This document shows, in pieces, positions 1-64,000 of a stretch of DNA of 64,000 nucleotides. Every line of letters starts with the position of its first letter. Position 1 is the stretch's first letter. Source of the DNA: Amycolatopsis cihanbeyliensis (GTDB taxonomy: Bacteria; Actinomycetota; Actinomycetes; Mycobacteriales; Pseudonocardiaceae); NCBI RefSeq assembly GCF_006715045.1, contig NZ_VFML01000001.1, positions 62,001 to 126,000 on the forward strand, in the 5' to 3' direction. A program made the position numbers and the translations under genes. Below the pieces are notes generated by a model that saw nothing but the letters and a program-made list of their open reading frames with translations, was not told the origin of the DNA and did not search any database.

Positions 1-2
1 AC

Positions 3-3000
3 CGGCTGCGGCGCTGGGAGCCACGGCTGTCCCTGGCCGCGGTGAACGGCCCGCGGTCCGTGGTGGTGTCCGGTGACTACACCGCGCTCGAGGAGTTCGC
101 CGCGGCCTGTGCGGCCGAGGACATCCCGGCCAAGCCGGTCACCGGTGACTTCCCTGCGCACTCGGCGCGGTTCGAGCGGGTGCGCGAGCGGATGCGCACC
201 GGGCTGGCCGGCATCCGGCCGGCGACGGGTGCGGTGCCGCTGCTGTCCACGGTCACCGGCGACTGGCTGGACCCCGCGGGGATGGACGCGGAGTACTGGT
301 ACGCCAACATGCGCGAGACCGTCCGGTTCGACGACGCCGTCCGCGCGCTGCTCGGCCACGGCCGGCCCCTGTTCGTCGAGGTCGGCCCGCACCCGGTACT
401 GACCGCGGGGATCGCCGAGACCATCGACGCGACCGGCGCGGAGGCCGGCACGGTACCCACCCTACGGCGCGGTGACGGCGGGCGCGCCCGGCTGCTGCGC
501 TCGCTCGCCGAGGCCCAGCAGGGCGGCGCCCCGGTGGACTGGGCCGCCTGTTTCGACGGCACCGGGGCCCGCCGGGTGGACCTGCCCACCTACGCCTTCG
601 ACCGCACGCGCTACTGGCCGCACCCCGTGCCGGACGCGGGAGACCCGGCGGCCGCCGGTCTCACCCCCACGCGGCATCCCCTGCTGGGCGGGGCGATGCG
701 CCTGGCCGACCGCGGTGGGGAACTGGTGCTCACCGGCCGGGTCTCGCTGGCCACCCACCCCTGGCTCGCCGACCACACCGTGTTCGGCTCGGCGCTGTTC
801 CCCGGGGCCGGGTTCGTCGAACTCGCCGTGCGCGCGGGCGACGAGGTCGGCTGCGACCGGGTGGCCGAGCTGGCACTGGCCGAACCGATGGTGCTGCCCG
901 CTCGGGACGCCCTGCGGCTCCAGGTCGTGGTGGGCGAGCCCGGCGAGTGGGGGCAGCGCGGCCTCGCGGTGTACTCCCGCCCGGAGGGCGCCGAGGACCT
1001 GCCGTGGACGCGGCACGCCACCGGGCTGCTCGCCGCGGGCGATCCGGCCGGGGACGCCGGTGGCCCCCCACCCTTCGACGCCACCGCATGGCCGCCCCCG
1101 GGAGCCGAGCCCGTCCCGATCTCCGGCTGCTATGCCGGGTTCGCCGAGTGGGGCTTCGACTACGGCCCCGCGTTGCAGGGCCTGCGCGCGGTGTGGCGGC
1201 GGGGCACCGAGGTGTTCGCCGAGGTCGCGCTCCCGGCCGGGGAGCCCGGCGCGTTCGGCCTGCACCCGGCCCTGCTCGACGCCGCCCTGCACGCCGCCAT
1301 GACCGGCGAGGCCGGACCCACCGGCCTGCCCTTCTCCTGGGAGGACGTGCGGCTGCACGCCTCCGGCGCGAGCGGACTGCGGGTGCGGCTGGCCCCGTCC
1401 GGCGCCGGTGCCCTCTCCCTCAGCGCGGCCGACCCGGCGGGCGAACCGGTCGCCTCGGTATCCGCCCTGCGGGTCCGGGCCGTGCGCGCCGACCAGGTGA
1501 CCGGCCCGGCAACGGACTCGCTGTTCGGTCTCGAATGGGCACCGGTACAACTGTCCATAATGGACCATTCGGTGAGTGTGCTCGAGCCGGACGAGCTCGG
1601 CCTCGCCGCGCGGTTCGACCGGACGGTGCCGCCCGACCTCGCGGCGGAACGGCAGGTGGTGCTGGTGCCCGTGGCCGGTGCGGGTGGCCGGGACACGATC
1701 GGCTCGGCGCACGAGTGCACCGCGCGGGCGCTGGCGCTGATCCAGGACCGGCTGTCCCTGACCGAGGGTGCCCGGCTGGTCTTCCTCACCCGGGGCGCGC
1801 TGAGCGGGCAGGATCCCGCGGCGGCCGCCGTATGGGGCCTGGTGCGGACGGCGCAGGCCGAGCGGCCCGGCTGCTTCGGGCTGGTCGACCTTGACCCGGA
1901 GGGCGGTGCGCCGCCGCCGGAGATCCTCGATCCGGCCGAGCCGCAGCTCATCGTCCGGGGCGGGCGGGTGCTGGCCGCCCGGCTCGCCAGGGTCACCGGG
2001 TCGCCCGAGCCATCCCGGCCGTCCACATGGGACACCGGCGGCACGGTGCTGGTCACCGGCGGCACCGGCGGGCTCGGCGCGGTCGTGGCGCGACACCTGG
2101 CCGAGCGGGGATTCCGGCACCTGCTGCTGGCCGGGCGCCGGGGTACCGCGGCGGAGGGGGTCGCGGACCTGGTCACCGAACTCGCCGCACGGGGCACCCA
2201 GGTACGGGTGGCGGCCTGCGACGCGGCCGACGCGACGGCCGTGGCGGAGCTGATCGCCGGGGTTCCCGCGGAGCACCCGCTGACCGCGGTGGTGCATGCC
2301 GCGGGCGTGCTGGACGACGGGGTGCTGGAGTCGCTGACCCCGGGACGGCTGGCCACCGCCCTGCGGCCGAAGGTGGACGCGGCGTGGAACCTGCACGAGG
2401 TCACCCGCCACCTCGACCTGGACGCCTTCGTGCTGTTCTCCTCCGCGGCCGGGATCCTCGGGGCCGCGGGGCAGGGAAACTACGCCGCGGGCAACGCCTT
2501 CCTGGACGCGCTCGCCCGGCACCGGCGTGCGGGCGGCCTGCCCGCCCAGTCGCTCGCCTGGGGAGGGTGGGCCGAGGCGGGGATGGCCGCCGGGCTCGCG
2601 CCGGCCGAGCGGGACCGGATGACCCGCCGTGGCCTGCCGCCGCTGCCCACCGAACGGGGGCTCGAGCTGTTCGACCTGGCGACCGTTCTCGACGAGCCGG
2701 TGCTGCTGCCGGTGCGGCTCGACCTGCCCGCGATCCGCGCGGGTGGCGCGGTGCCGCCGGTACTGCGCGGGCTGCTTCCGGCCGCCGCGCGCCGCGCGGC
2801 ACACCAGGCCCCCGCGGCGGCAGGGCAGCTCACCGGCGAACTGCTCGGCCTGGACGCGCGGGAACGCGCCGAGCGGCTGGGCGAGCTGGTGCGCGCCCGC
2901 ATCGCGGCCGTGCTCGGCCACGACAGCCCGGAGTCGGTCGATCCGGACCGGGCGTTCTCCGACCTCGGGTTCGACTCGCTGACCGGGGTGGAACTGCGCA

Positions 3001-6000
3001 ACCAGCTGGCGGCCGCGACCGGGTTGCGGCTGCCGGCCACGGCCGTGTTCGACTACCCCTCGGCCGCGGCGCTGACCGGGCACCTGCTGGCGGAGCTGCT
3101 CGGCGACACCGCGCCCGAGCGGGCACCGGCCGTGCCGGCACCGGCCGAGGACCCCATCGTGATCGTCGGGATGAGCTGCCGCTATCCCGGCGGGGTCGGC
3201 TCCCCGGAGGAGCTGTGGCGGCTGGTGCGGGACGGGACCGACGCCACCGCGGAGTTCCCGGACGACCGCGGCTGGGACCTGGAGACGCTGCGACACCCGG
3301 ACCCGGACCGTCCCGGCAGCTCGCACACCCGCAGGGGCGGCTTCCTGACCGACGCGGCCGGGTTCGACGCCGGCTTCTTCGGCATGAGCCCCCGGGAGGC
3401 ACTGGCCACCGACGCACAGCAGCGGCTGCTGCTGGAAGCCGCCTGGGAGGCGCTGGAAGCGTCCGGAGTGGACCCTGCCGCGGCCCGCGGCAGCCGCACC
3501 GGCGTGTTCGCCGGCCTGATGTACGGCGACTACGCGACCCTGCTGGACGGGCCGGAGTTCGAGGGCTACCGGGGTAACGGCAGCGCCGCCAGTGTGGCGT
3601 CGGGTCGGGTGGCTTACGCGTTGGGTCTTGAGGGTCCCGCGGTGACGGTGGATACGGCGTGTTCGTCGTCGTTGGTGTCGTTGCATTTGGCGGTGCAGGC
3701 GTTGCGGTTGGGGGAGTGTTCGTTGGCGTTGGCTGGTGGGGTGACTGTGATGTCCACCCCGGCGGCCTTCGTGGAGTTCTCCCGTCAGGGTGGGTTGGCG
3801 CCGGACGGCCGTTGCAAGGCCTTCGGGGATGCCGCCGATGGGGTGGCGTGGTCGGAGGGTGTGGGGGTGTTGGTGTTGGAGCGGTTGTCGGATGCGGTGC
3901 GGAATGGGCGTCGGGTGTTGGCGGTGGTGCGGGGTTCTGCGGTGAATCAGGATGGTGCGTCGAATGGGTTGACGGCGCCGAATGGTCCTGCGCAGCAGCG
4001 GGTGATTCGGCAGGCGTTGGGGTCGGCGGGGTTGTCTGGTGCGGATGTGGATGTGGTGGAGGGTCATGGGACGGGGACGTCGTTGGGTGATCCGATTGAG
4101 GTGCAGGCGTTGCTGGCGACGTATGGGCAGGGTCGTGAGGTTCCGTTGTTGTTGGGTTCGGTGAAGTCCAACCTCGGGCATACGCAGGCGGCGGCGGGGG
4201 TGGCTGGGGTGATCAAGATGGTGCAGGCGATGCGGTACGGGGAGGTTCCTCCCACGCTGCATGCGGGGGAGCCCTCCTCCCAGGTGGACTGGACGGCCGG
4301 GGCGGTGGAACTCCTCACCCGCCGCACCGGTTGGCCCGCCGCCGACCGGCCGCGGCGCTGCGCGGTGTCCTCGTTCGGGATCAGCGGCACCAACGCCCAC
4401 GTCATCCTCGAACAGCCCGAACAGCAACCCGCGGCCGGAGTGACCCCGGCCGCGGAGGGATGCGTCCCCTGGCTGCTGTCCGCGCGCGACCTGCCCGCGC
4501 TCAGGGAGCAGGCCGACCGCCTGCGGCGGCGGGTGCGGGCGGGCGAGCTCACGGCCCGCGACATCGGGTACACCCTGGCCACCGCCCGCCCCGCGTTCGG
4601 AAGGCGCGCCGCGATCCTGGCCGGGGAAGCCGGTCGGGACGCCGCCCTGCGCGCGCTCGGCGCGCTCGCCGCGGGCGAATCGGACCCCCTGCTGGTCGAG
4701 GGCGGGCCCGTGCCCGGCCGGATCGCCGCCGTGTTCCCCGGCCAGGGCGCGCAACGGCTCGAGATGGGGCGGGAGCTCGCGGCCCGCTACCCGGTGTTCG
4801 CGGCGGCCTTCGAGAAGGTGTGCCAGGTTATGGACGGCCTGCTGCCGCGCCCGCTGCGCGAGGTCGTATGGGGGACGGAGGCCGCGCTGCTGGATCGCAC
4901 CGGCTGGGCGCAGCCCGCGCTGTTCACCTTCGAGGTGGCCCTGTTCCGGTTGCTGGAGTCCTGGGGGCCGCGGCCGGATCTGCTCATCGGGCACTCGGTC
5001 GGCGAGGTCGCGGCCGCGCATGTCGCCGGTGCCGTGTCACTGCCGGACGCCTGCACCCTGGTGGCGGCGCGGGCCCGGCTGATGGAGGCGCTGCCCGAGG
5101 GTGGCGCCATGATCGCCGTGCGCGCCACCGAGGAGGAAGTGCAGCCACTGCTCGGGGCCGGGGTGTCGGTCGCCGCGGTGAACGCACCCGGCTCCGTGGT
5201 GCTGTCCGGGGACGAGGAGGCGGTGGAGACGCTCGCCGCGCGGTTCGCGGGCCGGGGACGGGACACCAGGCGCCTCACGGTGAGCCACGCGTTCCACTCG
5301 CCGCTGATGGAACCGATGCTCGACGAGTTCGCGGCGGCCGCGCGCGGGATCGAGGTCGCCGAGCCCACCATCCCGCTGGTGTCCACCGTGACCGGTACGC
5401 GGGTGACCGCGGCGGAGCTGGCCGAGCCCGGCTACTGGACCACCCAGGCGCGGCACACCGTGCGCTTCGCAGCCGGGATCCGCACGCTACGCGCGGAGGG
5501 CGCCGGGATCTTCCTCGAGCTCGGACCGGACGCGGCCCTCACCGCGATGGTGGAGGACACTCTCGCCGAGCAGGACGGCTCGCGGCCGTGGCTCGCGCTG
5601 CCGGCGCTGCGGGCCGGCCGGGACGAGCAGGCCGCCCTGCTGACCACACTCTCCACCGCGCACTGCGCCGGGGCGGAGCCGGACTGGCCGTCCTTCTTCG
5701 CCGGAACCGGCGCCGCGCTGGTGGACCTGCCGACCTACCCGTTCCAGCACGCGCGGTACTGGCCCGCCGGTGGCCCCCGGCGCGGCGATGTGACCGCGGT
5801 CGGCCTGGCCGATGCCGAGCATCCCCTGCTCGGGGCGGTGGCCGAACTCGCGGATGGCGACGGCGCGCTGTTCACCAGCAGGCTGTCCCAGGGCGCGTAC
5901 CCGTGGCTCGCCGATCACGCCGTGCTCGGCAGGGTCCTGCTGCCCGGAACCGCCTTCGTGGAGCTCGCCCTGCGTGCCGGTGCCGAGCTCGGCTGCGGCA

Positions 6001-8546
6001 ACCTGACCGAACTCACCCTCGCCGCCCCGCTGTTGCTGCCCGCGGACGGCGAGATCGCGTTGCAGGTCCGGGTCGGCGCCCCGGACCAGGACACGCGGGA
6101 AGGGCACCGCACCGTCACCATCCACTCCAGACCGTACGGCGCGGGCACCCCGTGGACCCTGCACGCCACCGGGACGGTCGCGGCACGGCCGGGCACCCCC
6201 GGCGCCCCCGTGCGGTGGCCGCCCGAGGACGCCGAACCGGTCGACCCGGCGGGCTGCTACGAGCACTTCGGTGCGGCGGGGCTCGGGTACGGACCCGCGT
6301 TCCGCGGGCTGCGCGCGGTGTGGCGGCGAGGGGAGGAGGTGTTCGCCGAGGTCGGGTTGCCCGAGGAGGTGCGCGAGCAGGCGACCCGCTTCGGGCTGCA
6401 CCCGGTGCTGCTCGACTCCGCCCTGCACGCGATCCCGCTCACCGGCGAGCACAGTGGACGGTTGCGGCTGCCGTTTTCCTGGGAAGGCGTCACCCTGCAC
6501 ACCGAGGGGGCGTCCGTGTTGCGCGTGTGCCTGCGCTGGTCCGGGGACACCCTGGCCATCCTCGCCACCGACGAACGGAACCGGCCCGTGGTCACCGTGG
6601 ACGGTCTGCGCCTGCGTGCCGTCTCCGCCGAGCAGCTCTCCGCCGCGGAGGCCGCGGACCCGGTGCGGGACTCGCTCTTCCAGCTCGACTGGACCGCCGC
6701 ACACCCGGCGGGCCAGGAGACGGCGACCGCGGCGGTGCTCGGCGCGGGCTCCGCCGGGCTCCCGGCCCGGGCCGTGGCCGACCTGGACGAACTGGACCCG
6801 GTGCCCGAGGTGGTGGTCCTCGCCATGCCCGGCGAATCCGGCCGTGCACCCGGTGACGAGCTGCCGGACTCGGCACACCGGCGGGTCACCGAGGCGCTGC
6901 GCCTGGCGCAGCGGTGGCTGGCCGAAGACCGGTTCACCGGCTCGCGGCTGGTGTTCCTCACCCGCGGTGCGGTGCCGGCAGGGGACGCACCGGCGGACCT
7001 GGCCGCCGCCGCGGTCTGGGGTCTGGTGCGTTCGGCCCAGGTGGAGCATCCCGGCCGGTTCGGCCTGCTCGACCTGGACGACTCCGCGCCGCCGGAGGAG
7101 ACGGAGCTGGCGCGGGCCGTGGCGGCCACCGCGACCGAACCGCAGCTCGCCCTCCGCGACGGCGAACTGCTCGCGGCCCGGTTGCACCGCGTGCCCGCCG
7201 CGGGGCAGGAAGGTCCGGCGTGGGACCCGGCGGGCACCGTCGTGATCACCGGCGGCACCGGGGGCCTCGGCGGCGTCCTCGCCAGGCACCTCGCCACCGA
7301 GCACGGGGTGCGCCGGTTCCTGCTGCTCAGCCGTGCCGGCCCGGACGCGCCGGGCGCCGCGGGGCTGCTCGCGGAGCTGGCCGACCACGGCGCGATCGCC
7401 CGCGCCGTGGCCTGCGACGCGGGCGATCGCGCCGCGCTCGCCGCCGCGCTGGCGACCGTGCCTGCCGAACACCCGGTGCGGGGCGTGGTGCACGCCGCCG
7501 GGGTGCTGGACGACGGCGTCGTGGACGGCCTGACCCCGCAGCGGGTCGGCCGTGTGCTGCGCCCCAAGGTGGACGCGGCGTGGCACCTGCACGAGCTGAC
7601 CAGCGGGCTCGACCTCACCGCGTTCGTGTTGTTCTCCTCGGTGGCCGGCACCCTCGGCGCCGCGGGGCAGGCGAACTACGCCGCGGCCAACGCTTTCCTC
7701 GACGCGCTTGCCCGGCATCGGCAGGCGGCCGGGCTCCCCGCGGTCTCGCTGGCCTGGGGACCCTGGGGTCCCGAGGCGGGGATGACGGAGACGCTGCGCG
7801 CCGCGGACGCCGAGCGGATGCGCCGCACCGGCATGCCGGCCCTGTCCGCGGCGGAGGGCCGAACGCTGTTCGACGCCGCGTTGCGTGGCGGCCTGCCGGC
7901 GGTCGTGCCCGCGCGGCTGGACCTGACCGCACTGCGCGCGCACGAGGAGATCCCGCCCCTGCTGCACGGCCTGGTCCGGCCGCGAGGTGGCCGCGCGGGC
8001 GCGCGGGCGGGCAGCGCGGAGCCGGCCGAGGCCCTGCGGCAGCGCCTGGAGGGCCTGCCCGGAGCGCGGCGGGAACAGGCCCTGCTCGAGCTGGTCCGGG
8101 GCGAGGCGGCCGCGGTACTCGGTCACCCGGGCGCGGAGGCGGTCGAGCCGGAGCACCGCTTCGCCGATCTGGGATTCGACTCGCTCACCGCGGTGGAGCT
8201 GCGCAACCGGCTCGGCAGGGCGACCGGGCTACGGCTGCCCGCCGCGCTGCTGTTCGACCACCCCACCCCGGAGGCGCTGGCCGGGCACCTGCTGCCACTC
8301 CTGGCCCCCGCGGCGGACGAGGGGCGGACCGTGCTGGCGGAACTGGACCGGCTGCGGGCGCGGCTGGCCGAGCTGACGGCCGACGACCAGCTGCGCGGGC
8401 AGGTGGCGGGCAGGCTGGAGGTGCTGCTGGCCGGATGGACCGGGCAGCAGGGGCCCGAACCGAACGGGAACGGTGCGGTCGACTTCGACTCGGCCTCGGA
8501 CGAGGAGATGTTCAGCCTGCTCGACCACGAACTCGGGCAGTCCTGA
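3..8546 (+). CDS. Modular type I polyketide synthase, two modules (5' partial)
   Basis: The reading frame is open from the window edge, so the N-terminus lies upstream. Residues are counted from the GTG at 42. Domains in order: AT, C-terminal part (1-165); DH (about 210-480, HxxxGxxxxP present); KR (about 670-880, GGTGGLG and LDD, so B-type); ACP (serine in GFDSL near 977); then KS (about 1036-1460, TACSSS, HGTGT), malonyl-type AT (FPGQGAQ near 1564, GHSVG, HAFH near 1748), DH (about 1900-2180), B-type KR (about 2400-2590), ACP (near 2710) and a C-terminal docking tail ending in acidic residues. There is no ER and no thioesterase. Each module should therefore leave a double bond, and the chain passes to a further subunit. 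The first AT has PAHS where malonyl ATs have HAFH. The product is unknown. Confidence 0.95.
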
Positions 8547-44804: not shown

Positions 44805-44844
44805 CCCGCTCGCGACCAGCCGCCGGCCGAGGCGCATGTGCTAT

Positions 44845-44860
44845 GTATAACGGCCTATAC
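44845..44860. promoter_or_regulatory. Inverted repeat before the MBL-fold gene
   Basis: GTATA, six bases, TATAC. It is an AT-rich island in high-GC DNA, 74 bases before the next start codon. A further GTATAG occurs at about 44,924. It could be an operator or promoter element of the MBL-fold gene. Confidence 0.3.
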
Positions 44861-44933
44861 GCCACCGCTGGTGTTCTCCGCTCCGCCACACGCGACTTGA
44901 CCTCCAGCGCGCTCGAGGTTTGAGTATAGGCAC

Positions 44934-45767
44934 ATGACGATATGGATCTGTACCGGATGCGGGCTGGAACACCCGGACTCACCCGAGCCGCCGCCGGTCG
45001 ACGGCTGTGTACTCGACCGCGGCGAGGTCGGCGTCGAGGAGCGTGGCGATCTGGGACCGCATGGCAGAGGGTGGACGACGCACGCGGAGCTGGCCGCGCA
45101 GCCGCACGAAACGTTGCGCAGGGACCACGGTCGTGGTGTGTACAGCCTGCGCAGGGAACCGAGGTTCGCCATCGGCCACTGGTCGTTCCTGGTGCGGACC
45201 GCGCACGGCAACCTGCTCTGGGATCCGCCCGCCTATCTCGACGAGGAGGTCCTGGGCCTGGTGCGCGAGCTCGGCGGGGTGGATGTGATCGCGGTGAGCC
45301 ACCCGCACATGTTCGCCGCGCAGGTGAGCTGGAGCCACGCCTTCGGACGCGTTCCCGTGTTGGTGAACGCCGACGACCAGGAGTGGGTGCCGCGCGCCGA
45401 TCCCGTCGTCGAATACTGGAAGGACCACGCCGAGCCGTTACCCGGCGTCGAGCTCATCCAACTCGGTGGGCACATGCCGGGCAGTTCGGTCGCCCGCACG
45501 AGCGACGGCACCCTGTTGGTCGGCGACACGATCAGCGGGGTTCCCGTGCACCCGGCCTGGGTGTCATTCACCCGCAACTACCCGAAGCTGGTGCCGCTCT
45601 CGCCCGCGGTGGTGCGCCGGATCGTGCGGCGGCTGGACGCCTACGAGTACGACCGGCTCTACACGCTGGGCGGCGACACCATCGACAGCCAGGCCAAAGC
45701 GGTCGTGCACCGCTCCGCGGACAGCCACATCCGTTGGGCCGGCGGGGAGTTCGACCGGCTGACCTGA
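44934..45767 (+). CDS. MBL-fold metallohydrolase-like protein with N-terminal zinc-ribbon remnant
   Basis: A 277-residue protein. It begins with a short rubredoxin-like knuckle (MTIWICTGCGLEHPD and one further Cys). A metallo-beta-lactamase-like fold follows: SHPHMFA near residue 121, GGHMPGSSV near 178 and GDTISG near 195. The canonical HxHxDH site is reduced to HPHxxx, so metal binding may differ from true lactamases. The second zinc cysteine pair is incomplete. It stands after the siderophore exporter, with 129 bases between, and its link to that cluster is unproven. Confidence 0.75.
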   Translation: MTIWICTGCGLEHPDSPEPPPVDGCVLDRGEVGVEERGDLGPHGRGWTTHAELAAQPHETLRRDHGRGVYSLRREPRFAIGHWSFLVRTAHGNLLWDPPAYLDEEVLGLVRELGGVDVIAVSHPHMFAAQVSWSHAFGRVPVLVNADDQEWVPRADPVVEYWKDHAEPLPGVELIQLGGHMPGSSVARTSDGTLLVGDTISGVPVHPAWVSFTRNYPKLVPLSPAVVRRIVRRLDAYEYDRLYTLGGDTIDSQAKAVVHRSADSHIRWAGGEFDRLT

Positions 45768-45786
45768 CCGTGCACCCGGAGGGCGC

Positions 45787-46113
45787 TCAGCTGCCCCGGT
45801 TCTCGCCGAGCTCCTCGACGATGGGGTTGGGCCGCGTCGCACGCTGATGCTCGGCGAGTCCGCTCGGAGCGTCCTGGCCCGCCTGCCGTGCCTTGTCCGA
45901 GCTTGACTGGCCTTCCTCGGCGGCCTTGTCCAGTGGGGCCGATCGGAGGACCTCGGCCACGTTGGCGTACTCGGCGGGAGGCATGGCCCGCAGAGCCCGC
46001 ACCGCGCCCGCGTCCACACCGTGGTTCTCGGCGTAGGAGACGAGCTGCTCCTTGCCGGCAGGGAAGTCGGCGTCGGACAGTGCGGCCTCGAGCGTCCTCC
46101 GGTCCGTGGTCAT
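45787..46113 (-). CDS. DUF2795 domain protein
   Basis: A 108-residue soluble protein. The segment FPAGKEQLVSYAENHGVDAG, followed by A-V-R-A-L-R-A-M-P, is the DUF2795 core. A hydrophilic tail follows. AAGGAGG stands a few bases before the ATG. The function is unknown. The gene is convergent with the MBL-fold gene, with 19 bases between their stop codons. Confidence 0.8.
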   Translation of the reverse strand: MTTDRRTLEAALSDADFPAGKEQLVSYAENHGVDAGAVRALRAMPPAEYANVAEVLRSAPLDKAAEEGQSSSDKARQAGQDAPSGLAEHQRATRPNPIVEELGENRGS

Positions 46114-46339
46114 GGGGTCGCGCCTCCTTGCTGCTCGGGTCTGCGGCCGCGACAGTGCGCCGCCGGTACGGGTTGCCCTTCGGGTACCCACCCGGCGCGC
46201 GGTCACACCCGGCGCGCACCTGCCAACCCTGGCGGCTCCGCGCCTCGGTTGACCGCCGTTTCCCGCTCGGTCCTGTCGGCTCCGGCGGCCGTCTCGGCTG
46301 ACCGGCCTGCGGCCACCGCCGGGGTCGCTACCCGCCGGC

Positions 46340-46583
46340 CCCCGGACCGGGCCGGTGCCCAGCCCGATTCGCCGGAATCCGGCTTCCGCCAGCCGGTCCG
46401 CCCCCCACCAGGTTGCGGGTGTCGACCGGCATGGCCCGGTCGGCGGCCTCCGCCGGCCGGGCCCAGTCGAGCGTGCGGAACCGGGGCCACTCGGTCAGCA
46501 GTACGATCCCGGCCCACGTCCTTGGCCACCAGGTAGGGATCGTCGGTTACCCGGAGTGGTGCCAGGCCCGCCGCCTCGGCCGT
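46340..46583 (-). pseudogene. Fragment of UDP-glucose 6-dehydrogenase (C-terminal part)
   Basis: Minus-strand remains. One frame gives PLRVTDDPYLVAKDV, the next VLLTEWPRFRTLDWARPAEA and AMPVDTRNLV, and the next RLAEAGFRRIGLG. Together they follow the end of a UDP-glucose/GDP-mannose dehydrogenase. At least two frameshifts separate them and the N-terminal Rossmann domain is absent, so the gene is dead. The 46114-46339 stretch before it shows nothing recognisable. Confidence 0.65.
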
Positions 46584-46586
46584 GCC

Positions 46587-46740
46587 GCGTCAGCCACCGC
46601 ATCGGCGGTGCGCGGACCGCCGCCGGTAGCAGTGCGATCGTGAGCGGCACGATGACGAAGGCCAGGTGCGAGAGACCGTGCGCAGCGCCCACAGCGCGAG
46701 GAAGAGAATCAGCAGCCGCGCGGCCACGATGGCCGCCAGG
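46587..46740 (-). pseudogene. Fragment of an AI-2E-family transporter (N-terminal part)
   Basis: Two hydrophobic pieces in different minus-strand frames, AIVAARLLILFLALWALRTV and HLAFVIVPLTIALLPAAVRA followed by a R-W-L-T-R-H-G end, resemble helices 1 and 2 of AI-2E/PerM-like membrane proteins. They amount to about 50 residues of a protein that normally has about 350. It lies directly against the UDP-glucose dehydrogenase relic. Confidence 0.45.
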
Positions 46741-47096
46741 CGTTGCTCAACGCGCACGACCACGTCCTCGGTCTGCTGGAGCTGCCCGACCCGTTCACCG
46801 CGATCATCGGTCGGGACGATGTCGGCAACGGCAAGCCGCATCCGGAGCCCTACCGCAAGGGGTGCGCCGCACTCGACGTGCCGGCGGCCGAAACACTGGT
46901 CTTCGAGGACGCGGTCAGCGGCGTCCGCTCGGCGATCGCCGCGAGGACACGCTGCGCCGGTATCGGTGTGCCGGAGCTGAGGGAGGCCGGCGCGTTCGAT
47001 GTCATCGACGACTTCACCGGCCTGTATGTCGATCGGAGTACGCCCGCCGCTGTCACGCTGCGCGGACTCCGCCCCGCCGTCCCGATCAGGAGATGA
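46734..47096 (+). pseudogene. HAD-superfamily phosphatase, 5'-truncated
   Basis: About 120 residues of a beta-phosphoglucomutase-like HAD hydrolase: RQALLNAH, then RDDVGNGKPHPEPYRKGCAA and ETLVFEDAVSGVRSAIAA with the Mg-binding D. The N-terminal motif I with the nucleophile Asp (DxDGT) and the cap domain are missing. No ribosome site precedes the first possible start (TTG 46743). It is a remnant joined to the opposite-strand AI-2E fragment. Confidence 0.65.
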
Positions 47097-48050
47097 GCCA
47101 GCGGCACGGTGCCGTGCCGGTGATCTTGATGTCGCTCATGTCGCGCCGAGTCGCCGGAGGAACCATCGGGTCAGGATGTCGTCGACCGCCGTGGCTGTGG
47201 GCAGTTGCGGGGCCGGTTCCAGGCTGGGTTCCTCATGGTCGGCTCCGGCGGCGGGATGCTGGTCTCCGGCGGAGAGTTCGAGCGCTCGTGCGGCATGGGC
47301 GGCCGATCGAGGATGTGCTTGACCCGAGTAGCCTTCCCCACAGGGTGGAGGAACGCCGCACCGGCAGCGCCGCGGCCCGCCCCGCATGGCGGGTCTCCTG
47401 CGTCGTGGTGCCACCCGCAATGATGGCACCCTTTCCATCGCGGTGTGCCGTCGCCCATGAGCGTCGCTTTGTCCGGGCGGCGCCGCACCTGATCTTCGCG
47501 GAATTGATCAATTGGGCCGGATGGGGGTTCGAACGTACGCGGCCGCGCCCCCCGGATTGGTCCGATGGGCGGTAGAAATTCCGTCGCCGGCAGGTATAAA
47601 CGTCAACCAAATGGCAGACCGACCCGGTCGCGCGTGCGTTTTGCCGGATTAATCGCCCGCCGGGCCGGGCCGGACGGGCGGTGGTCCGGAAATATGGCGG
47701 CATCGCTGTCGGGCGATGAACGTTTGACCGCACCAACGTTTACTGCTGGTGATGAGAGTTGGCATTCGGGTGGTCCAGTCGATCACCGCAACCGTATCCG
47801 TTCGCCTGACGTTGGATTCTGTGCTATCTTGGCGAGGTAGTCGCAAGATCGTCACATTCGGTTGCCCGGGTAGCTTGGTTGGACTATTGGTGGTTCGTCC
47901 GGGTGGTGGGTAGGATTGAGATTCCGCGCGGAGACTAACTTGCACCGCTGGGGGTGCTGGGATATTTACACAGGTAATACTGGGGTTCCCCGATAGTCAT
48001 TAATTGATTATTTCTTATTGTCGCATTATTGCGTGCAAACGACTGATGGG
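47097..48050. other. Long noncoding stretch upstream of the second NRPS cluster
   Basis: 954 bases without a supported gene. The left part (to about 47,560) is high GC, with only implausible reading frames; a small hairpin (arms CGGCACGG/CCGTGCCG) lies at about 47,103-47,120. The right part (about 47,580-48,050) is clearly AT-richer. It holds two AACGTTT direct repeats (47719 and 47735), a TATCTT -10-like box (47825) and a run of A/T just before the start codon. It probably contains the promoter and operator region of the operon starting at 48051. Confidence 0.5.
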
Positions 48051-49361
48051 ATGCATATGGTCGAATCGCGGCCGGACTCGCCGTCGACGTCTGATACCGC
48101 GGCAGGGCGGCTCGCCGACCTGCAATTGACCGCCCGGACCGCGGCTGGGCGCCAGTTCGTGGAGCTCGCCGAACGGCACGCCGAGGATTTCGCCGCCCGG
48201 GCGGAGCAGCACGACGTCGAAGGTTCCTTCCCGTTCCAGAACTTCAAGGAGATGGCACAGAGTTCCTTCCTGGCCGGCACTGTCGGCGCCGAGTACGGCG
48301 GCCTTGGCGTGGACTCCCTTTACGACGTCATGGTCGGGTTGAGCCGGCTGGCTCGCGGCGACGCCTCCACCGCGATCGCGGCGAACATGCACGTCGCGGG
48401 TGCCTCGGTGGCCGGCCAGTTCATGCGACGCAGCCTGGCCGAGGGCGATGAGCACACCGCGGCGATGCTGTCCGCGCTGCTGGGCCAGGTCGGATCGGGA
48501 GCGGTGGTGATGTGCTTCCCGACCACGGAGCGCGGCACCGACCTGACCGCGCCACAGATGGAGGCCACCCCGGCCGACGGCGGCTACGTGCTCAACGGGC
48601 GCAAGATCTTCGGCACCATCTCGCCCGCCGCGCAGCTGTTCTTCCCCAGCGTGCGTATTCCCAAGGACGGCGGCGGCTACCTCACCGGCACCGCGATGGT
48701 TCCCGGCGACGCCCCCGGGTTGGTGGTGGAGGACAACTGGGACTCGCTGGGGATGCGTGCCTCCGGAAGCAACGACATCACCTTCACCGACGTGCGCGTG
48801 CCCGCCAGCCACGTGTTCGCGGTGAAGGACAACTACGCCAAGGTCGGCCAGGGTTTCGCCACCTTCGCCCTGACGGCCAACATTCCCCTGATCGCCACCT
48901 TCCTGGGTGTCGCCGAGTGCGCGACGGCGCACGCGGCCGAGGCAGCGGGGAAGCGCAAGGGACCGCGCAAGCGGCGACTGGCCGATCGCATCCCGATCCA
49001 GCAGCTCATGGCCGAGATCGAGATCGACCTGGCGACCTGCCGGGCGATGCTCGCCAGGGTCGGGCAGCTGGCCGATGAGTTCCTCGCGCGCTACGAGACC
49101 GGCGACCCGCTCTCCGCCGAGTCGAATGCGCTGATGAAGGAGACGCAGTGCATGAAGTACGTGGTCAACCGCAAGTCCATTGAAGTGGTGGACCGGGCGA
49201 TGATCATCTGCGGTGGTGGCTCGTACATGAGCCGGCACCCGCTGGCCCGGTTGTACCGCGACGTGCGGGCCGGCCCGTTCATGCAGCCGTTCGCTCCGTA
49301 CGAGGCACTGGAGTACATCGGCAAGGTGTCGCTCGGCCTCGACCCGGCGCTGGACCGCTGA
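48051..49361 (+). CDS. Acyl-CoA dehydrogenase-like flavoprotein 1
   Basis: A 436-residue acyl-CoA dehydrogenase-fold protein. N-terminal helices are followed by the FAD/substrate region: VGAEYGGLGVDSLYDVMVGL, CFPTTERGTDL, DNWDSLGMRASGSNDITFTD, and a C-terminal helical domain with ICGGGSYMSRHPLARLYRDV. The family makes alpha,beta double bonds in acyl thioesters with FAD. The catalytic Glu was not placed with confidence. First gene of the FAAL-NRPS operon; the substrate is probably carrier-bound. ATG 48051 or ATG 48057 are both possible. A TTG at 48018 seems less likely. Confidence 0.85.
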   Translation: MHMVESRPDSPSTSDTAAGRLADLQLTARTAAGRQFVELAERHAEDFAARAEQHDVEGSFPFQNFKEMAQSSFLAGTVGAEYGGLGVDSLYDVMVGLSRLARGDASTAIAANMHVAGASVAGQFMRRSLAEGDEHTAAMLSALLGQVGSGAVVMCFPTTERGTDLTAPQMEATPADGGYVLNGRKIFGTISPAAQLFFPSVRIPKDGGGYLTGTAMVPGDAPGLVVEDNWDSLGMRASGSNDITFTDVRVPASHVFAVKDNYAKVGQGFATFALTANIPLIATFLGVAECATAHAAEAAGKRKGPRKRRLADRIPIQQLMAEIEIDLATCRAMLARVGQLADEFLARYETGDPLSAESNALMKETQCMKYVVNRKSIEVVDRAMIICGGGSYMSRHPLARLYRDVRAGPFMQPFAPYEALEYIGKVSLGLDPALDR

Positions 49362-49395
49362 CCGTGCCCGGTGACGACGGATCGGAGTCACAGCC

Positions 49396-51393
49396 GTGCT
49401 GACCCTCGGCCTGGCCGGTGGACTGGACCCGGCACACGACGTGGTCCTGGACACCCCGGAGAACTACACCTACGACGGCGCCGCGGTGCTGGTACGCGAC
49501 GGTGTGATCATCGCCGCCGCGGAGGAGGAACGGCTCAACCGGATCAAGCACTCCAACAAGTTCCCGGTCTCGGCGATCCGGTTCTGCCTCGACGAGGCCG
49601 GAGTGCGCCCGGAGGAGATCGACCGCTTCGCCTACTACGTCGACGAGGCCGCGGCCAACGCGTTGCTCACCCGGCTGTACCTGCGGATGCCGGACTGGCC
49701 GCTGCGCGCCGATGCTCGCACGATGTTCGCCGGAGCGCTCGGTGTTCACCTCGGCTGCGAGGTCGAGCAGGACAAGCTGGACTTCTACGCGCACAAGCTG
49801 ACCCACGCCGCCGGCGCGCTCGCGCACTCCGGTTTCGACGACACCCTGGTGTACGTGGTGGACAGCGCGGGAGGGGTGTTCGACGCGGGCTGGACCGCCG
49901 ACGGCGCGCTGCGCCTGGAGGAACTCGTCGCCATCCCGCCGGCGCGCTCGATGAACCAGTTGTGGGAGAAGACGCTGCCTTTCCTCGGTTTCGGGTTGTT
50001 CGAGGAGTACAAGGCGATGGCACTGGCAGCGCATGGTGACCCGGCCCGGTTCCGGCCGTTGCTGGAGCAGGTGTGCCGCCGGCTGCCGGACGGCGACTAC
50101 GCGGTGGACCTGGCCACGCTGGACCGGCTCGCCGGGGAGGTCCCGCCCCGCCCGCGGCACGAGGAACCAGCCGAGGTACACCGGGATCTGGCGGCGGCCT
50201 TGCAGGAGGCCACCGAGGAGGTGGTGCTGCACGTGCTGCGGCACTACCGGGAGAGGACCGGCAGGAGCACCCTGTGCATGGCCGGGGGAATGATCGAGAA
50301 CACCGCGGTGAGCGGGCGGGTGCTGCGCTCCGGCCTGTTCGACGACGTGTTCGTGCACCCCGCCGCCTACGACTCCGGGTGCGCGGTCGGGGCGGGGCTG
50401 CTGGCCGCCAACGACGCGGGGGACCGCCTGGACCGGTCCCGGGTGCGGCACGTGTACTGGGGCCGCTCGCTCGGCGGCGACCAGGACATCGATGCGGAGC
50501 TGGCCGGCTGGTCCGCGTTCGTGGACGTGGCACGACCGGAGCGGCCGGCAGAGCACGTCGCCGGGCTGCTCGCCGAGGGCAAGGTGCTCGGCTGGGTGCG
50601 GGGCCGGGCGGAGTTCGGCTCGCACGCACTCGGCAACCGCAGCATCCTCGCCGACGCTCGCCGGAAGGAGGCCCGCGCCCGGGTCAACGAGGTCACCGGA
50701 CGGAACGAGCCGTACCGGCCGCTCGCGCCGTCGGTGCCGGTGGAACGTGCCGCGGACTTCTTCGTGCTGCCAGGACGGACCGGCGCCTCGCCGTTCATGA
50801 CCTTCGCACTGGAGGTGCGCCCGGAGTGGCGGGCCGAGTTGCCCGCGGTCACCCACGCCGACGGCACCGCCAAGCTGCACACCGTGGCGCGGGAGGACAA
50901 CCCGGGCTACTGGGAACTGCTGACCGCCTTCGGCGCGCGGACCGGGGTCCCCGTGCTGCTGAACACGTCGTTCAACAACAGCACGGAACCGACCGTGGAC
51001 TCGGTGCGCGACGCGGTGGTCGCCTTCCTCACCACCGGACTGGACGGCCTCGTCGTCGGTGACCGCGTGCTCAGCCGTGCGGACCCGGCCGAGGCGGACT
51101 GGCGCGCATTGGAGGTGTCGGTGCCGCCGTACGTGAAGCTGTTCCGGGTCAAGGGGCAGACCGAACGCGACCAGGGTGGCGCTCGGCACGAGATCCGCAC
51201 CACCTACGACCCGCCGGTGCGGCGCAGGATCGGTCCCGCCGCCGCGGCGCTGCTGGACTCGCTGGACCGCCCGGCGAACCTCGGTGACGCGTTGGACCGG
51301 GTCGATGCCGACCCCACGGAGCTCCTCGCCGAACTGCGGGGCCTGTGGGCCGAACGATTCCTTCGTCTTGCGCCCCAAGGAGGTGCGGCATGA
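49396..51393 (+). CDS. NodU/CmcH-family carbamoyltransferase homologue with altered motifs
   Basis: A 665-residue member of the O-carbamoyltransferase family, which adds carbamoyl groups from carbamoyl phosphate and ATP. The Kae1-like domain keeps HxxxH (HKLTH, near 133) and LNTSFNNSTEPTVDS. Two motifs kept by its paralogue at 52624 are changed: GGVALNCTMNG has become GGMIENTAVSG (near 296) and GPRALG has become GSHALG (near 409). This suggests lost or altered catalysis. Residues after about 575 form an extra C-terminal domain of about 90 residues. It lies 34 bases after the first dehydrogenase gene and overlaps the second by ATGA. Confidence 0.85.
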   Translation: MLTLGLAGGLDPAHDVVLDTPENYTYDGAAVLVRDGVIIAAAEEERLNRIKHSNKFPVSAIRFCLDEAGVRPEEIDRFAYYVDEAAANALLTRLYLRMPDWPLRADARTMFAGALGVHLGCEVEQDKLDFYAHKLTHAAGALAHSGFDDTLVYVVDSAGGVFDAGWTADGALRLEELVAIPPARSMNQLWEKTLPFLGFGLFEEYKAMALAAHGDPARFRPLLEQVCRRLPDGDYAVDLATLDRLAGEVPPRPRHEEPAEVHRDLAAALQEATEEVVLHVLRHYRERTGRSTLCMAGGMIENTAVSGRVLRSGLFDDVFVHPAAYDSGCAVGAGLLAANDAGDRLDRSRVRHVYWGRSLGGDQDIDAELAGWSAFVDVARPERPAEHVAGLLAEGKVLGWVRGRAEFGSHALGNRSILADARRKEARARVNEVTGRNEPYRPLAPSVPVERAADFFVLPGRTGASPFMTFALEVRPEWRAELPAVTHADGTAKLHTVAREDNPGYWELLTAFGARTGVPVLLNTSFNNSTEPTVDSVRDAVVAFLTTGLDGLVVGDRVLSRADPAEADWRALEVSVPPYVKLFRVKGQTERDQGGARHEIRTTYDPPVRRRIGPAAAALLDSLDRPANLGDALDRVDADPTELLAELRGLWAERFLRLAPQGGAA

Positions 51394-52580
51394 GTAACGG
51401 CCCGAGTGCGCTTTCCCCGCAACACCGCGAACAGCTCGACGCGCTCGTGGCGGCGCTGCGGGAGTCGCTGCCCACCGGTGACCTTCCCGGTTTCTACCGC
51501 CGGTTCCGCGAGAGCGACCTGCCGTTCGTGCCGGTGCGCGGCGAGCTGGACACCGGGAAGCTGTTCCGGTTCTGCTACGAGGTGCTGCACCGGCTTGGCA
51601 GCGTGTCCCCCGCCGTGGCGCTGGCGGTGGAGAACCACTATTACGTCACTTCCGCGCTGGCGACCTTCCCGGCCGGCGGCGACCCCGTGCTCGACGCCCG
51701 CCGCGACGCGCTACTCGAATCGGTGCGGGACAACCGATGGCTGGTCGCCAACACCAACTCGAAGGTGCACGGCAACAAGCTCGGCGCGGTCGGTACCTAC
51801 GCCAAACCCATGCCCGACGGGTTCGCCGTCAACGGCTCCGCCGCTTACACCTCCCTGGCCACCGAGGGCGATCTGCTGGTGTTCATCACCCAGATCCTCG
51901 ACCAGGGGCCCGGCGTGTTCGCCATCGCGCCGATGCAGGACAACCCGGCCATCGAGATCGGTCCGTACCTTTTCCCCTCGGCGATGCTGGACTCCGACAC
52001 CCGCCGGATCACCTTCCACGACCTGGAACTGCCCGCGGACAGCCAGCTCATCGACCCGGCGAACTCCCATGCGGAACTGCTGTTCGCCTTCGAGATGGCC
52101 TGGCACCAACTGCTGATCCCGGCGCTCTACCTCGGCGGTGCGGCCGGTGCGCTGGAGGAGGTGCGCACGTTCCTGCGCGACACCCAGGGCCGGGACGGCA
52201 AGCCGCTGGCCGAGCTGGACGGCATGGTGATCGACATCGGCAGGCTGGCTATCGACTACCGCAGCGCCTGCCAGGTGTTGCAACGCGCGGGGGAGCGCCT
52301 CGCCGAGGTCAGGCGCATACCGGAGGATGCCGACCTGCTCGCCGCGGCCTCGGCGGAGGCCGGCGTCGCCAAGTACGTCGGCACCCGGCGTGCCGAGGAG
52401 GTGGTGACCGTGGCCCGCCGCATCGTCGGCGCCCGCACCTTCACCGGCGGGCACCTGCTGGAACGACTGTCCCAGGAGATCATGTTCGGCCCCCTCGGCC
52501 CCGAGGTGAGCGCCGTCATCGAACGCCGTCTCGGTACCCGCGCCCTCGACGACCAGTCGTTCCTCAACCCCTGGTGGTGA
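51390..52580 (+). CDS. Acyl-CoA dehydrogenase-like flavoprotein 2
   Basis: A 396-residue acyl-CoA dehydrogenase-fold protein, distant from the copy at 48051. Landmarks: VALAVENHYYVTSALATFPA, ANTNSKVHGNKLGAVGTYAK, NGSAAYTSLATEGDLLVFIT, and a C-terminal region with VARRIVGARTFTGGHLLERL. AAGGAGG stands before the ATG, which overlaps the preceding stop. Two such enzymes could form a heteromer or act at two positions of the acyl chain or amino acid. The substrate is unknown. Confidence 0.82.
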   Translation: MSNGPSALSPQHREQLDALVAALRESLPTGDLPGFYRRFRESDLPFVPVRGELDTGKLFRFCYEVLHRLGSVSPAVALAVENHYYVTSALATFPAGGDPVLDARRDALLESVRDNRWLVANTNSKVHGNKLGAVGTYAKPMPDGFAVNGSAAYTSLATEGDLLVFITQILDQGPGVFAIAPMQDNPAIEIGPYLFPSAMLDSDTRRITFHDLELPADSQLIDPANSHAELLFAFEMAWHQLLIPALYLGGAAGALEEVRTFLRDTQGRDGKPLAELDGMVIDIGRLAIDYRSACQVLQRAGERLAEVRRIPEDADLLAAASAEAGVAKYVGTRRAEEVVTVARRIVGARTFTGGHLLERLSQEIMFGPLGPEVSAVIERRLGTRALDDQSFLNPWW

Positions 52581-52623
52581 CCCCGATCGGCCCCTCGGGG
52601 GTCGTCGTCTGGAGGAAAGTTCT

Positions 52624-54632
52624 ATGCTCGTGCTCGGCTTCAGTGGCGGGCTCAACCGTGTTCACGAGAACCCGTTCCAGCTCCCGCGAGCACTGACCCA
52701 TGACGGTGCCGCGGCCATCGTGCGCGACGGCGAGGTCGTCGCCGCGATCGAGGAGGAACGGCTCAACCGGATCAAGCACTCCAACAAGTTTCCCCGGGAG
52801 AGCATCCAGTTCTGCCTCGACACGGCGGGTGCGACCATCGACGACGTCGACCGGTTCGCCTTCTACGCCACCGAGGAGTACTGCGACGCGCTGCTGGCCC
52901 GGATGTTCCTCACGGTGCCGGAGATGCCCCAGCGTCCCACGGCGCGGGGACTGGTGAGCCACTTGCTTGAGCAGGAGTTCGGTCGCCCGATCGATCCCGC
53001 GAAGATCGACTTCACTCGGCATCACCTGGCGCATGGCGTGAGTGCCACGGCCATGTCCGGCTTCGACCGCAGCCTGCTGCTGGCGATAGACGGCTACGGC
53101 GACTTCCTCTCCGGCCTTGTCGGCACCGCCGACGGCGCGAGCGTCACCGAGATCGCCAGCTTCCCGCAGCGCAAGTCGCTGGGCCTGCTCTATCTCGACG
53201 TGATCCAGTTCGTCGGCTACAAGCAGTTCGACGAGTACAAGGTCATGGGCCTGGCGCCCTACGGGGACCCGTCCGTGTACCGGGACCTGTTGCGCGAGAT
53301 CTACCAGCTGCTGCCGGGCGGGGACTACGAGCTGGATCTGGACCGCATCGTCCCGGCGCTGCTGCCCGCGATCGAGGTGCGCAAGAAGGGCCAGCCGTTC
53401 ACCCAGCAGCACAAGGATCTCTCCGCCGCGCTGCAGGAGGCGCTGGAGACCATCGTGCTGCACGTACTCGCCCACCACAGGGAGACCACCGGGCTCACCA
53501 AGCTCGCCATGGCCGGCGGTGTCGCGCTGAACTGCACCATGAACGGCAAGATCGCCGAGTCCGGGATGTTCGATGACCTGTTCGTCCAGCCGGCCGCACA
53601 CGACGCGGGCTGCGCGCTGGGCGCCGCGTTGCTCGTCTCGGACGAGCACGGCAAACCGGCCCCGCGCCGGCCGCTTCGGCATGTCTACTGGGGCACCGAC
53701 ATCGGCGAGGAGGCCGCGATCAAGCGTGAGCTGGAGGGCTGGTGCAACTTCCTCAGCTTCGACCGGATGCCCGATGTGACGCTGAGCGCGGCGGTGTGGC
53801 TGGCCAAGGGATCGGTGATCGGCTGGGTGCAGGGCCGGTCCGAGTTCGGGCCGCGCGCCCTCGGCCACCGCAGCATCCTGGCCGACCCGCGCCCCGCGGC
53901 CAACCGCGAGCGGGTCAACCAGGTGGTCAAGAAGCGGGAGGGTTACCGGCCGTTCGCACCGTCGGTGTTGGAGGAGGACGCCCGCGACTATTTCGAGCTG
54001 CCGTCGGGTACCGACAGCTACCCGTTCATGATCACCGTGTTCCCGGTGAAGGAGGACAAGCGCAGCCTGCTGCCCGCGGTGACGCATGTCGACGGTTCCG
54101 CGCGCCCGCAGACGGTCTCCCGCGAGGTCAGCCCGCGTTACTGGGAGCTGATCAACGTCTTCCGGCGGCTGACCGGTGTTCCGGTTCTGCTCAACACCTC
54201 CTTCAACAACAACGTCGAGCCGATCGTGGACTCGGTGGAGGACGCGATCGTCTCGTTCCTGACCACCGAGCTGGACTGCCTGGTGATCGGTGACTTCGTG
54301 GCCCGCAGGATCGAACCGCGCCAGCAGGACTGGCTGGGCCTGCACATCTCGCTGCTGCCGCATATCCGGCTCCAGCAGACCAAGGGGCACACCGGCCCGG
54401 CCGAGGTGACCATCACCGCCGAGCTGCGCACCACCTACGACGCCCGCTTCAGCCACCCGCTGTCCGAACGCCTGGCGACCCTGCTGATGGGCCTGCACGG
54501 CGAGCGACCGGTGGGAGAGCTGTTCGCCGACGAGCCCGCGGACAACCTTCCCGTGCTGCTGAAAGAACTGGTCGAGCTGTGGGAGCTGCGGCTGATCCGG
54601 CTGCGCCCGGTGGCGGGCAGGGGGGAGAGTCG

Positions 54633-54636
<4 letters not shown>
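52624..54636 (+). CDS. NodU/CmcH-family carbamoyltransferase with intact motifs
   Basis: A 670-residue carbamoyltransferase. HHLAH (near 132), AMAGGVALNCTMNG (near 297), GRSEFGPRALGHRSILADPR (near 404) and LNTSFNNNVEPIVDS match the active family (TobZ, CmcH, NodU). Both this protein and its paralogue share the N-terminal EEERLNRIKHSNKFP, so they arose by duplication. The C-terminal extension of about 90 residues resembles a small winged-helix or PqqD-like domain. It probably adds a carbamoyl group to a hydroxyl or amine of the lipopeptide. AGGAAAG precedes the ATG; it overlaps the NRPS gene by ATGA. Confidence 0.9.

Positions 54637-64000
<9,364 letters not shown>

Follow-up and report, generated by a model that had tools for sequence, protein, structure and literature searches.

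Flavin N-oxygenases of the nitrososynthase branch, among them DnmZ and the enzymes of PDB entries 4kcf/3m9v and 3mxl (which we take to be KijD3 and ORF36, respectively), act on aminosugars. In alanosine biosynthesis, the acyl-CoA dehydrogenase (ACAD)-like AlnG has been proposed to hydroxylate carrier-bound 2,3-diaminopropionate (Dap), according to the available portions of two reports (PMC7347517; PMC11705231). In viomycin biosynthesis, the flavin adenine dinucleotide (FAD) dehydrogenase VioJ and the carbamoyltransferase VioL have been proposed to convert tethered Dap into beta-ureidodehydroalanine (PMC10880069, available part). In the carbamoyltransferase GdmN, the C-terminal domain forms a face-to-face dimer in which the pocket of each subunit is completed by an essential element of its partner, loop 4'; H27 is the general base, and the H27N variant shows no activity (PMC9633730, available part). 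Here we describe a locus of Amycolatopsis cihanbeyliensis that combines these themes. Within a 64,000-nucleotide stretch (hereafter the window), two ACAD-like genes (ACAD1, ACAD2) alternate with two genes of GdmN-type carbamoyltransferase homologues (CARB1, CARB2) and lead into a nonribosomal peptide synthetase (NRPS) loaded by a fatty-acid-AMP ligase (FAAL). We propose, as a tentative reading that we prefer while holding it somewhat below an even chance, that this cassette makes the first residue of a FAAL-initiated lipopeptide from Dap by means of ACAD1, CARB2 with CARB1 as its partner, and ACAD2.

Results

The window spans positions 62001-126000 of contig C1 (NZ_VFML01000001.1) in a 7.4-Mb genome and has a GC content of 72%. 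The four genes upstream of the synthetase lie on the + strand and show an actinomycete-like bias at third codon positions; gene starts were assigned with a caller of our own making, and the families of all four were confirmed by Pfam. The features on which the argument rests are as follows, in window coordinates.

48051/48057-49361, + strand: ACAD1, predicted flavin monooxygenase of the nitrososynthase branch (ATG at 48051 or 48057; PDB sequence search)
49396-51393, + strand: CARB1, GdmN/NodU-type carbamoyltransferase homologue without the general-base His (H to Y), the oxyanion Gly and the YrdC Arg; iron ligands present
51390-52580, + strand: ACAD2, highly diverged ACAD-fold flavoprotein family with an invariant W238-H239-Q240
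52624-54636, + strand: CARB2, complete GdmN/NovN-type class III carbamoyltransferase with C-terminal dimerisation domain
54633-64000 in the window, ending at 70085 (5150 aa), + strand: FAAL-T-(C-A-T)x4-TE synthetase, first part inside the window
54669-56360, + strand: FAAL loading domain of the synthetase (PDB sequence search)
58050-59612, + strand: A1 adenylation domain, code residues D-I-W-E-L-T-A-D-D
73392-74357, about 9 kb beyond the window: SbnA, a pyridoxal phosphate (PLP) enzyme scoring above the NCBIfam TIGR03945 cut-off

ACAD1 and CARB1 are 34 bases apart, CARB1 and ACAD2 overlap by ATGA (51390-51393), ACAD2 and CARB2 are 43 bases apart, and CARB2 runs into the synthetase through a further ATGA overlap (54633-54636). 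A preliminary description of this DNA had reported the alternating order of four closely spaced genes and the overlap into the FAAL-loaded synthetase, both of which stand; it had also seemed to count two overlapping junctions besides the latter, whereas only one of the three inner junctions overlaps. Its reading of the genes as two paralogous pairs is clear for CARB1 and CARB2 (46% identity over 671 aa) but not for ACAD1 and ACAD2, which belong to one superfamily as distant members (25% over 316 aa, E 3e-9).

The closest solved sequence relatives of ACAD1 are nitrososynthases. Its best PDB sequence matches are 4kcf/3m9v (207 bits), DnmZ (188 bits) and 3mxl, labelled 'Nitrososynthase' (171 bits), followed by 5gj7/5z8t, labelled just 'acyl-CoA dehydrogenase type 2 domain protein' (134 bits), and by ordinary dehydrogenases at 68 bits or below. 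ACAD1 has the stretches DNWDxLGMRxSG and AGxFMxP in common with the nitrososynthases. Gln replaces the catalytic Glu of ACADs in 22/22 aligned ACAD1 relatives (21 of the 120 listed, hand-picked for diversity, plus one locus). We placed the Glu column by a gapless match to what we take to be the MCAD motif, and it falls in a stretch shared with nitrososynthases. ACAD1 thus looks like a member of the nitrososynthases, that is, a flavin N-oxygenase and not a functional dehydrogenase, for which the likely substrate here would be an amino acid instead of an aminosugar. The earlier suggestion that the dehydrogenases desaturate the acyl chain is rejected for ACAD1 on account of its nitrososynthase branch and the Gln at the Glu position, and ACAD2 is too diverged to class. 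Source annotation of the ACAD1 branch is inconsistent: two of the 120 listed relatives, both metagenomic (P0276, P0309), are labelled L-evernosamine nitrososynthase, and other relatives named by the Joint Genome Institute are labelled AidB-like acyl-CoA dehydrogenase.

The two carbamoyltransferase homologues differ sharply. CARB2 aligns over its full length with NovN and GdmN, the extra C-terminal domain included, and carries every feature of the class III GdmN subclade: a Kae1-like domain, a YrdC-like domain, a C-terminal domain of about 100 aa, the base His, H133, H137, D156 and D333. The base His, Y82, the four iron ligands, the oxyanion Gly and the YrdC Arg (whose role we assume) are all kept in 7/7 CARB2 orthologues, with Tyr or Ser at the position of GdmN R158. 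Base, iron ligands, Gly and Arg are likewise kept in 120/120 listed CARB2 matches, the window's own counted. The seven CARB1 orthologues, three of which come from one genus, all retain the four iron ligands and Y82, but all have Tyr for the base His (GdmN H27), Ser or Asn for the oxyanion Gly and His or Val for the invariant YrdC Arg. Moreover, 131 of the 230 columns that are invariant in CARB2 and four NolO-type enzymes are changed in at least one CARB1. Among Sorangium strains, omega is 0.33-0.39 for CARB1 versus 0.22-0.30 for CARB2, and CARB1 is therefore under purifying selection in Sorangium and not decaying. The residues present suggest that CARB2 is the only catalytic member of the pair and that CARB1 is probably its partner subunit, or alternatively a repurposed iron site. 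The view of two equal carbamoyltransferases was set aside as unlikely, given the loss of the general-base His in CARB1. What remains of the idea that carbamoyltransferases cap a hydroxyl or amine is that something bound for the FAAL-initiated peptide is likely carbamoylated, by CARB2. The locus also differs from GdmN in having a degenerate paralogue one gene away; none is described for GdmN in the available part of PMC9633730.

ACAD2 stands on a branch of its own and is very diverged. At E 0.01, the C-terminal ACAD domain is recognised in 23/23 aligned members (hand-picked for diversity from 120 listed relatives), the middle domain in 13/23 and the N-terminal domain in 0/23. Profile searches with ACAD2 find ACADs, DszC and nitroalkane oxidase, with 3m9v/4kcf lower. 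W238-H239-Q240 is invariant in the family. The ACAD Glu column holds Pro (20 members) or Gly (3 members), and a Glu stands one column later in 21/23, so ACAD2 might still act as a dehydrogenase.

The synthetase comprises FAAL-T, four C-A-T modules and a TE domain, and is thus FAAL-initiated. Among named fatty-acid-AMP ligases, its loading domain matches FadD23 (316 bits), FadD32 (302 bits) and 3pbk (267 bits) in the PDB sequence search; two higher matches carry other names, 7r7f ('Polyketide synthase', 563 bits) and 3kxw ('Saframycin Mx1 synthetase B', 468 bits). The nine A1 code residues, read by hand off a MAFFT alignment as were the other codes, are the same in the 6/6 clusters with a complete A1; the seventh copy was seen in part. 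Beyond module 1, the one comparison available is that of A2-A4 of the window with A2-A3 of Sorangium, as the other three clusters end before A2, and here the modules differ; presumably, A2 takes a beta-amino acid, A3 Val and A4 an Asp-like residue.

Two further genes suggest how the first residue may be supplied. All five SbnA proteins scanned exceed the SbnA equivalog cut-off (TIGR03945): the copy of this cluster scores 367.3 bits against 349.95, and 4/4 relatives are also above. The SbnB cut-off (NCBIfam TIGR03944) is exceeded by 4/4 proteins scanned, namely the sole SbnB of this genome (397.7 versus 326.9) and 3/3 relatives, which overturned a reading of its PF02423 match as a plain ornithine cyclodeaminase. 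An SbnA gene is present in 7/7 genomes with the block and SbnB in 6/7; the SbnA and SbnB of Sorangium strains So0008-312 and So ceGT47 were judged by alignment to the scanned So0157-2 copies (dN 0.05-0.09). The SbnA gene follows the NRPS in the window genome, precedes the block in both metagenome-assembled genomes (MAGs), sits within it in the three Sorangium strains and is found on another contig in Corallococcus. The Corallococcus contig (L026, 9573-16854) holds SbnA, SbnB, a 667-aa hydrolase, ACAD1, an AMP ligase and an acyl carrier protein (ACP) in a row, an arrangement that resembles, and so suggests, a stand-alone carrier pathway for N-hydroxy-Dap. Together, SbnA/SbnB and the conserved module 1 point to Dap or a Dap derivative as the likely residue 1 substrate.

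Relatives of the block were sought by protein search and pattern scan, with one genome per species, followed by translated comparison. Related loci came to light in three Sorangium strains, in Corallococcus and in two MAGs, one of Blastocatellia and one of Terriglobia, so the doubled arrangement noted at the outset is real and conserved. The order ACAD1-CARB1-ACAD2-CARB2-FAAL-NRPS is identical in both Acidobacteriota MAGs (Blastocatellia and Terriglobia). Corallococcus has CARB1-ACAD2-CARB2-FAAL-NRPS on one contig and ACAD1 with SbnA and SbnB on a second, the two presumably belonging to one cluster, and the three Sorangium loci read CARB1-ACAD2-CARB2-SbnA-SbnB-FAAL-NRPS. SbnA, ACAD2, CARB1 and CARB2 are thus common to all seven genomes, and ACAD1 is found in four of them. 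It had been held to count against the cassette if relatives made the same product without one of the pairs; the Sorangium loci, which lack ACAD1, go half of the way.

The block genes diverged together: across the seven genomes, the identity matrices of CARB1, ACAD2, CARB2 and FAAL-C1 correlate pairwise at 0.96-0.99, values boosted by the three close Sorangium strains. In an unrooted tree, one branch (100/99) separates the seven CARB1 from the seven CARB2, with 15 other rows, rhizobial NolO types included, on the CARB2 side and the window's CARB1 on a long branch; the CARB1/CARB2 pair would then predate its spread. We call the block rare because ACAD2 was found, at E 1e-60, in the centre genome alone in each of four groups sampled (397, 396, 235 and 247 genomes). 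No ACAD2 relative was found in plasmid or viral collections at the limits used. Of the 57 ACAD2 contigs of at least 8 kb, at least 22 match the contig of a CARB2 or ACAD1 row in size; equal size is not proof of identity, and the figure is a lower bound from a comparison of 119 ACAD2 rows, 63/120 CARB2 rows and 68/120 ACAD1 rows. The preliminary description had called the doubled arrangement unfamiliar, and no such cluster appeared among the open-licence papers listed in our literature searches, which is weak evidence of novelty.

CARB2, ACAD2 and ACAD1 relatives occur in Bradyrhizobium sp. 188 (P0040, P0216, P0268), and two relatives in Rhizobium rhizogenes (P0154, P0298). Judging by these rhizobial sequences, the block may be present in Alphaproteobacteria too; no alphaproteobacterial locus with the block was among the loci fetched.

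In Sorangium, the NRPS is followed in 3/3 strains by an isochorismatase-like hydrolase, HypE (with a C-terminal PRLC), HypF and an ABC exporter.

L021 4580-10326, - strand: Sorangium HypE/HypF region
L053 8672-14371: Sorangium HypE/HypF region
L022: equivalent region of So ceGT47

In So0157-2, the sole strain scanned, HypE scores 408.8 bits against a cut-off of 251.6 and HypF 759.3 against 466.1, and the called genes overlap between HypE and HypF and between HypF and the ABC exporter. A second HypF lies elsewhere in So0157-2 and So ceGT47, and the NRPS-side pair therefore looks dedicated in these two strains; So0008-312 shows a single HypF. No HypF match was found in the window genome, Corallococcus or Terriglobia, and Blastocatellia has one on another contig. 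HypE and HypF convert carbamoyl phosphate into a protein-bound cyano group, and a cyano group in the product of Sorangium would be in keeping with the pair, a suggestion drawn from one genus.

Discussion

In the scheme that we prefer, SbnA and SbnB, whose family cut-offs are exceeded, would make Dap; all steps beyond this supply are ones that we infer. ACAD1, placed by its branch, would hydroxylate the side-chain amine of carrier-bound Dap, as proposed for AlnG. CARB2 would then move the carbamoyl group from carbamoyl-AMP onto the N-OH of Dap (or onto its amine), and CARB1, a retained near-pseudoenzyme, may form a GdmN-like dimer with CARB2 and supply a substrate loop across the subunits. ACAD2 might next oxidise the same residue, which would enter the peptide at module 1. 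The L-alanosine pathway offers the nearest likeness, for there too Dap is proposed to be N-oxygenated on a carrier by an enzyme of the ACAD family, and the stand-alone AMP ligase and ACP of Corallococcus are suggestive in this regard; the likeness of AlnG to ACAD1 is taken from the description of AlnG. The present locus differs in having a FAAL-NRPS and a pair of class III carbamoyltransferase homologues, and no gene for N-N bond formation was recognised in it. Enamidonin-type lipopeptides were also considered and set aside, as Dap is present but neither carbamoyl nor acyl-CoA dehydrogenase occurs in the available part of the text (PMC11204786).

Several points weigh against the preferred scheme. 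No ACAD1 relative was found in the three Sorangium genomes at E 1e-25, and N-oxygenation by ACAD1 is therefore not a universal step; Sorangium has HypE/HypF next to the NRPS in place of ACAD1. The SbnB gene of the window genome lies about 600 kb from the cluster (C1:737064-738026), and the portion of the Blastocatellia contig that was fetched showed no SbnB. The part given to ACAD2 is taken from gene position alone, and the correlations behind the co-divergence of the block are raised by the close Sorangium strains. Finally, no amino acid could be matched to the A1 code: a text search of the literature for the code gave nothing, and no code was found in the available part of a paper on poly-Dap synthetase (PMC4668381).

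The strongest rival, though in itself rather unlikely, is a viomycin-like route in which ACAD2 dehydrogenates carrier-bound Dap and CARB2 carbamoylates the side-chain nitrogen, giving beta-ureidodehydroalanine (or beta-ureidoalanine), with ACAD1 as an extra in some clusters. Its weight is raised by the finding that the genes shared by 7/7 genomes are ACAD2, CARB1, CARB2 and SbnA and do not include ACAD1, and it is also suited by the Glu that 21/23 ACAD2 sequences have next to the column of the ACAD base. Viomycin itself resembles the present locus in uniting Dap, an ACAD-like flavoprotein and a carbamoyltransferase within one NRPS cluster, and the NodU-like StdF is reported in a preprint to place a carbamoyl group on the amine of a lysine (PMC13174530, available part). 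On the other hand, the carbamoyltransferase here is doubled and of another family, the product is a lipopeptide, and an N-oxygenase-type gene present in 4/7 genomes is left unexplained. CARB1 and CARB2 are class III enzymes, unlike VioL, which is of the transcarbamylase type. Stretches around the VioD-like genes of 6 genomes above the cut-off (of 14 with a match), taken as a possible source of VioJ, contained no ACAD1 or ACAD2 relative at E 1e-5; five of these stretches were 40 kb long and one about 4 kb. By contrast with the viomycin-like route, a carbamate could serve as a leaving group, a role that the preliminary description had also raised and that we consider unlikely: ACAD1 would turn Dap into a hydroxylamine or oxime, CARB2 would carbamoylate the oxygen, and loss of the carbamate would give a nitrile, azirine, imine/enamine or N-N bond, with CARB1 (iron site, no base) perhaps assisting the elimination. 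Here an N-oxygenase-type gene neighbours an O-carbamoyltransferase-type gene, Sorangium has HypE/HypF beside its NRPS, and carbamate elimination has been proposed for products of Asm21, a GdmN-subclade enzyme (PMC3388874, available part). The support for such an elimination is indirect, however, and Sorangium lacks ACAD1. Ranked just behind it, and likewise improbable, is an extended form in which the carbamate of the oxidised, O-carbamoylated Dap amine leaves so that the lipopeptide bears a nitrile, azirine or N-N warhead, CARB1 acts as an iron-site partner or eliminase, and the corresponding slot in Sorangium is served by the cyano-forming HypE/HypF pair from hydrogenase maturation.

We regard as very unlikely the original model, in which desaturation of the acyl chain falls to the ACADs, and hydroxyl groups of the peptide or lipid are capped by the carbamoyltransferases. 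In some lipopeptide clusters, ACADs adjoining FAALs do desaturate acyl-ACP, but ACAD1 groups with the nitrososynthases and carries Gln in place of the Glu, an amino acid is indicated by SbnA/SbnB together with the conserved A1, and CARB1 lacks the base. Least probable of all is an alanosine-like fate, in which N-hydroxy-Dap would be turned into a metal-binding diazeniumdiolate whose distal N might come, among other sources, from the carbamoyl group. Alanosine is indeed proposed to begin from carrier-bound Dap that is N-hydroxylated by an ACAD-like enzyme (PMC7347517; PMC11705231, available parts), but the cluster genes scanned, which cover part of the flanking genes, included none recognisable as a cupin, HDO or nitrite-forming gene.

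When a rare block keeps its gene order in three bacterial phyla, it usually does so for a single, specific chemical purpose. Should the cassette indeed act on Dap through ACAD1 and CARB2, it would offer a route by which Dap is N-oxidised and carbamoylated on a carrier, a carbamoyltransferase working with a catalytically degenerate paralogue, and a case in which some ACAD-family enzymes are misannotated as dehydrogenases. The Sorangium HypE/HypF variant, if confirmed, would bring the cyanide chemistry of hydrogenases into the making of natural products.

Neighbouring genes

Downstream of the synthetase, four further genes precede SbnA.

70082-71206: methyltransferase, directly after the NRPS
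71221-71445: MbtH protein
71450-72316: alpha/beta hydrolase
72407-73351: EamA transporter

Upstream of ACAD1, about 3 kb (44805-48050) contains weakly coding open reading frames with no Pfam match among those scanned, and separates the block from a distinct catechol-type siderophore cluster (20922-44804). The latter comprises an isochorismatase, a DAHP synthase, an SDR, a chorismate-binding enzyme, an AMP ligase and a carrier, together with a siderophore-interacting protein, an Fe ABC transporter, an NRPS and an MFS exporter. A large modular polyketide synthase gene enters the window from the left (window 1-8546, upstream to about -19778), with KS, AT, DH, KR and ACP domains in 3-8546. At the Terriglobia locus, a PhpK-family radical SAM P-methyltransferase is encoded upstream of the cluster (L018 3-2198; 645 bits, cut-off 600).

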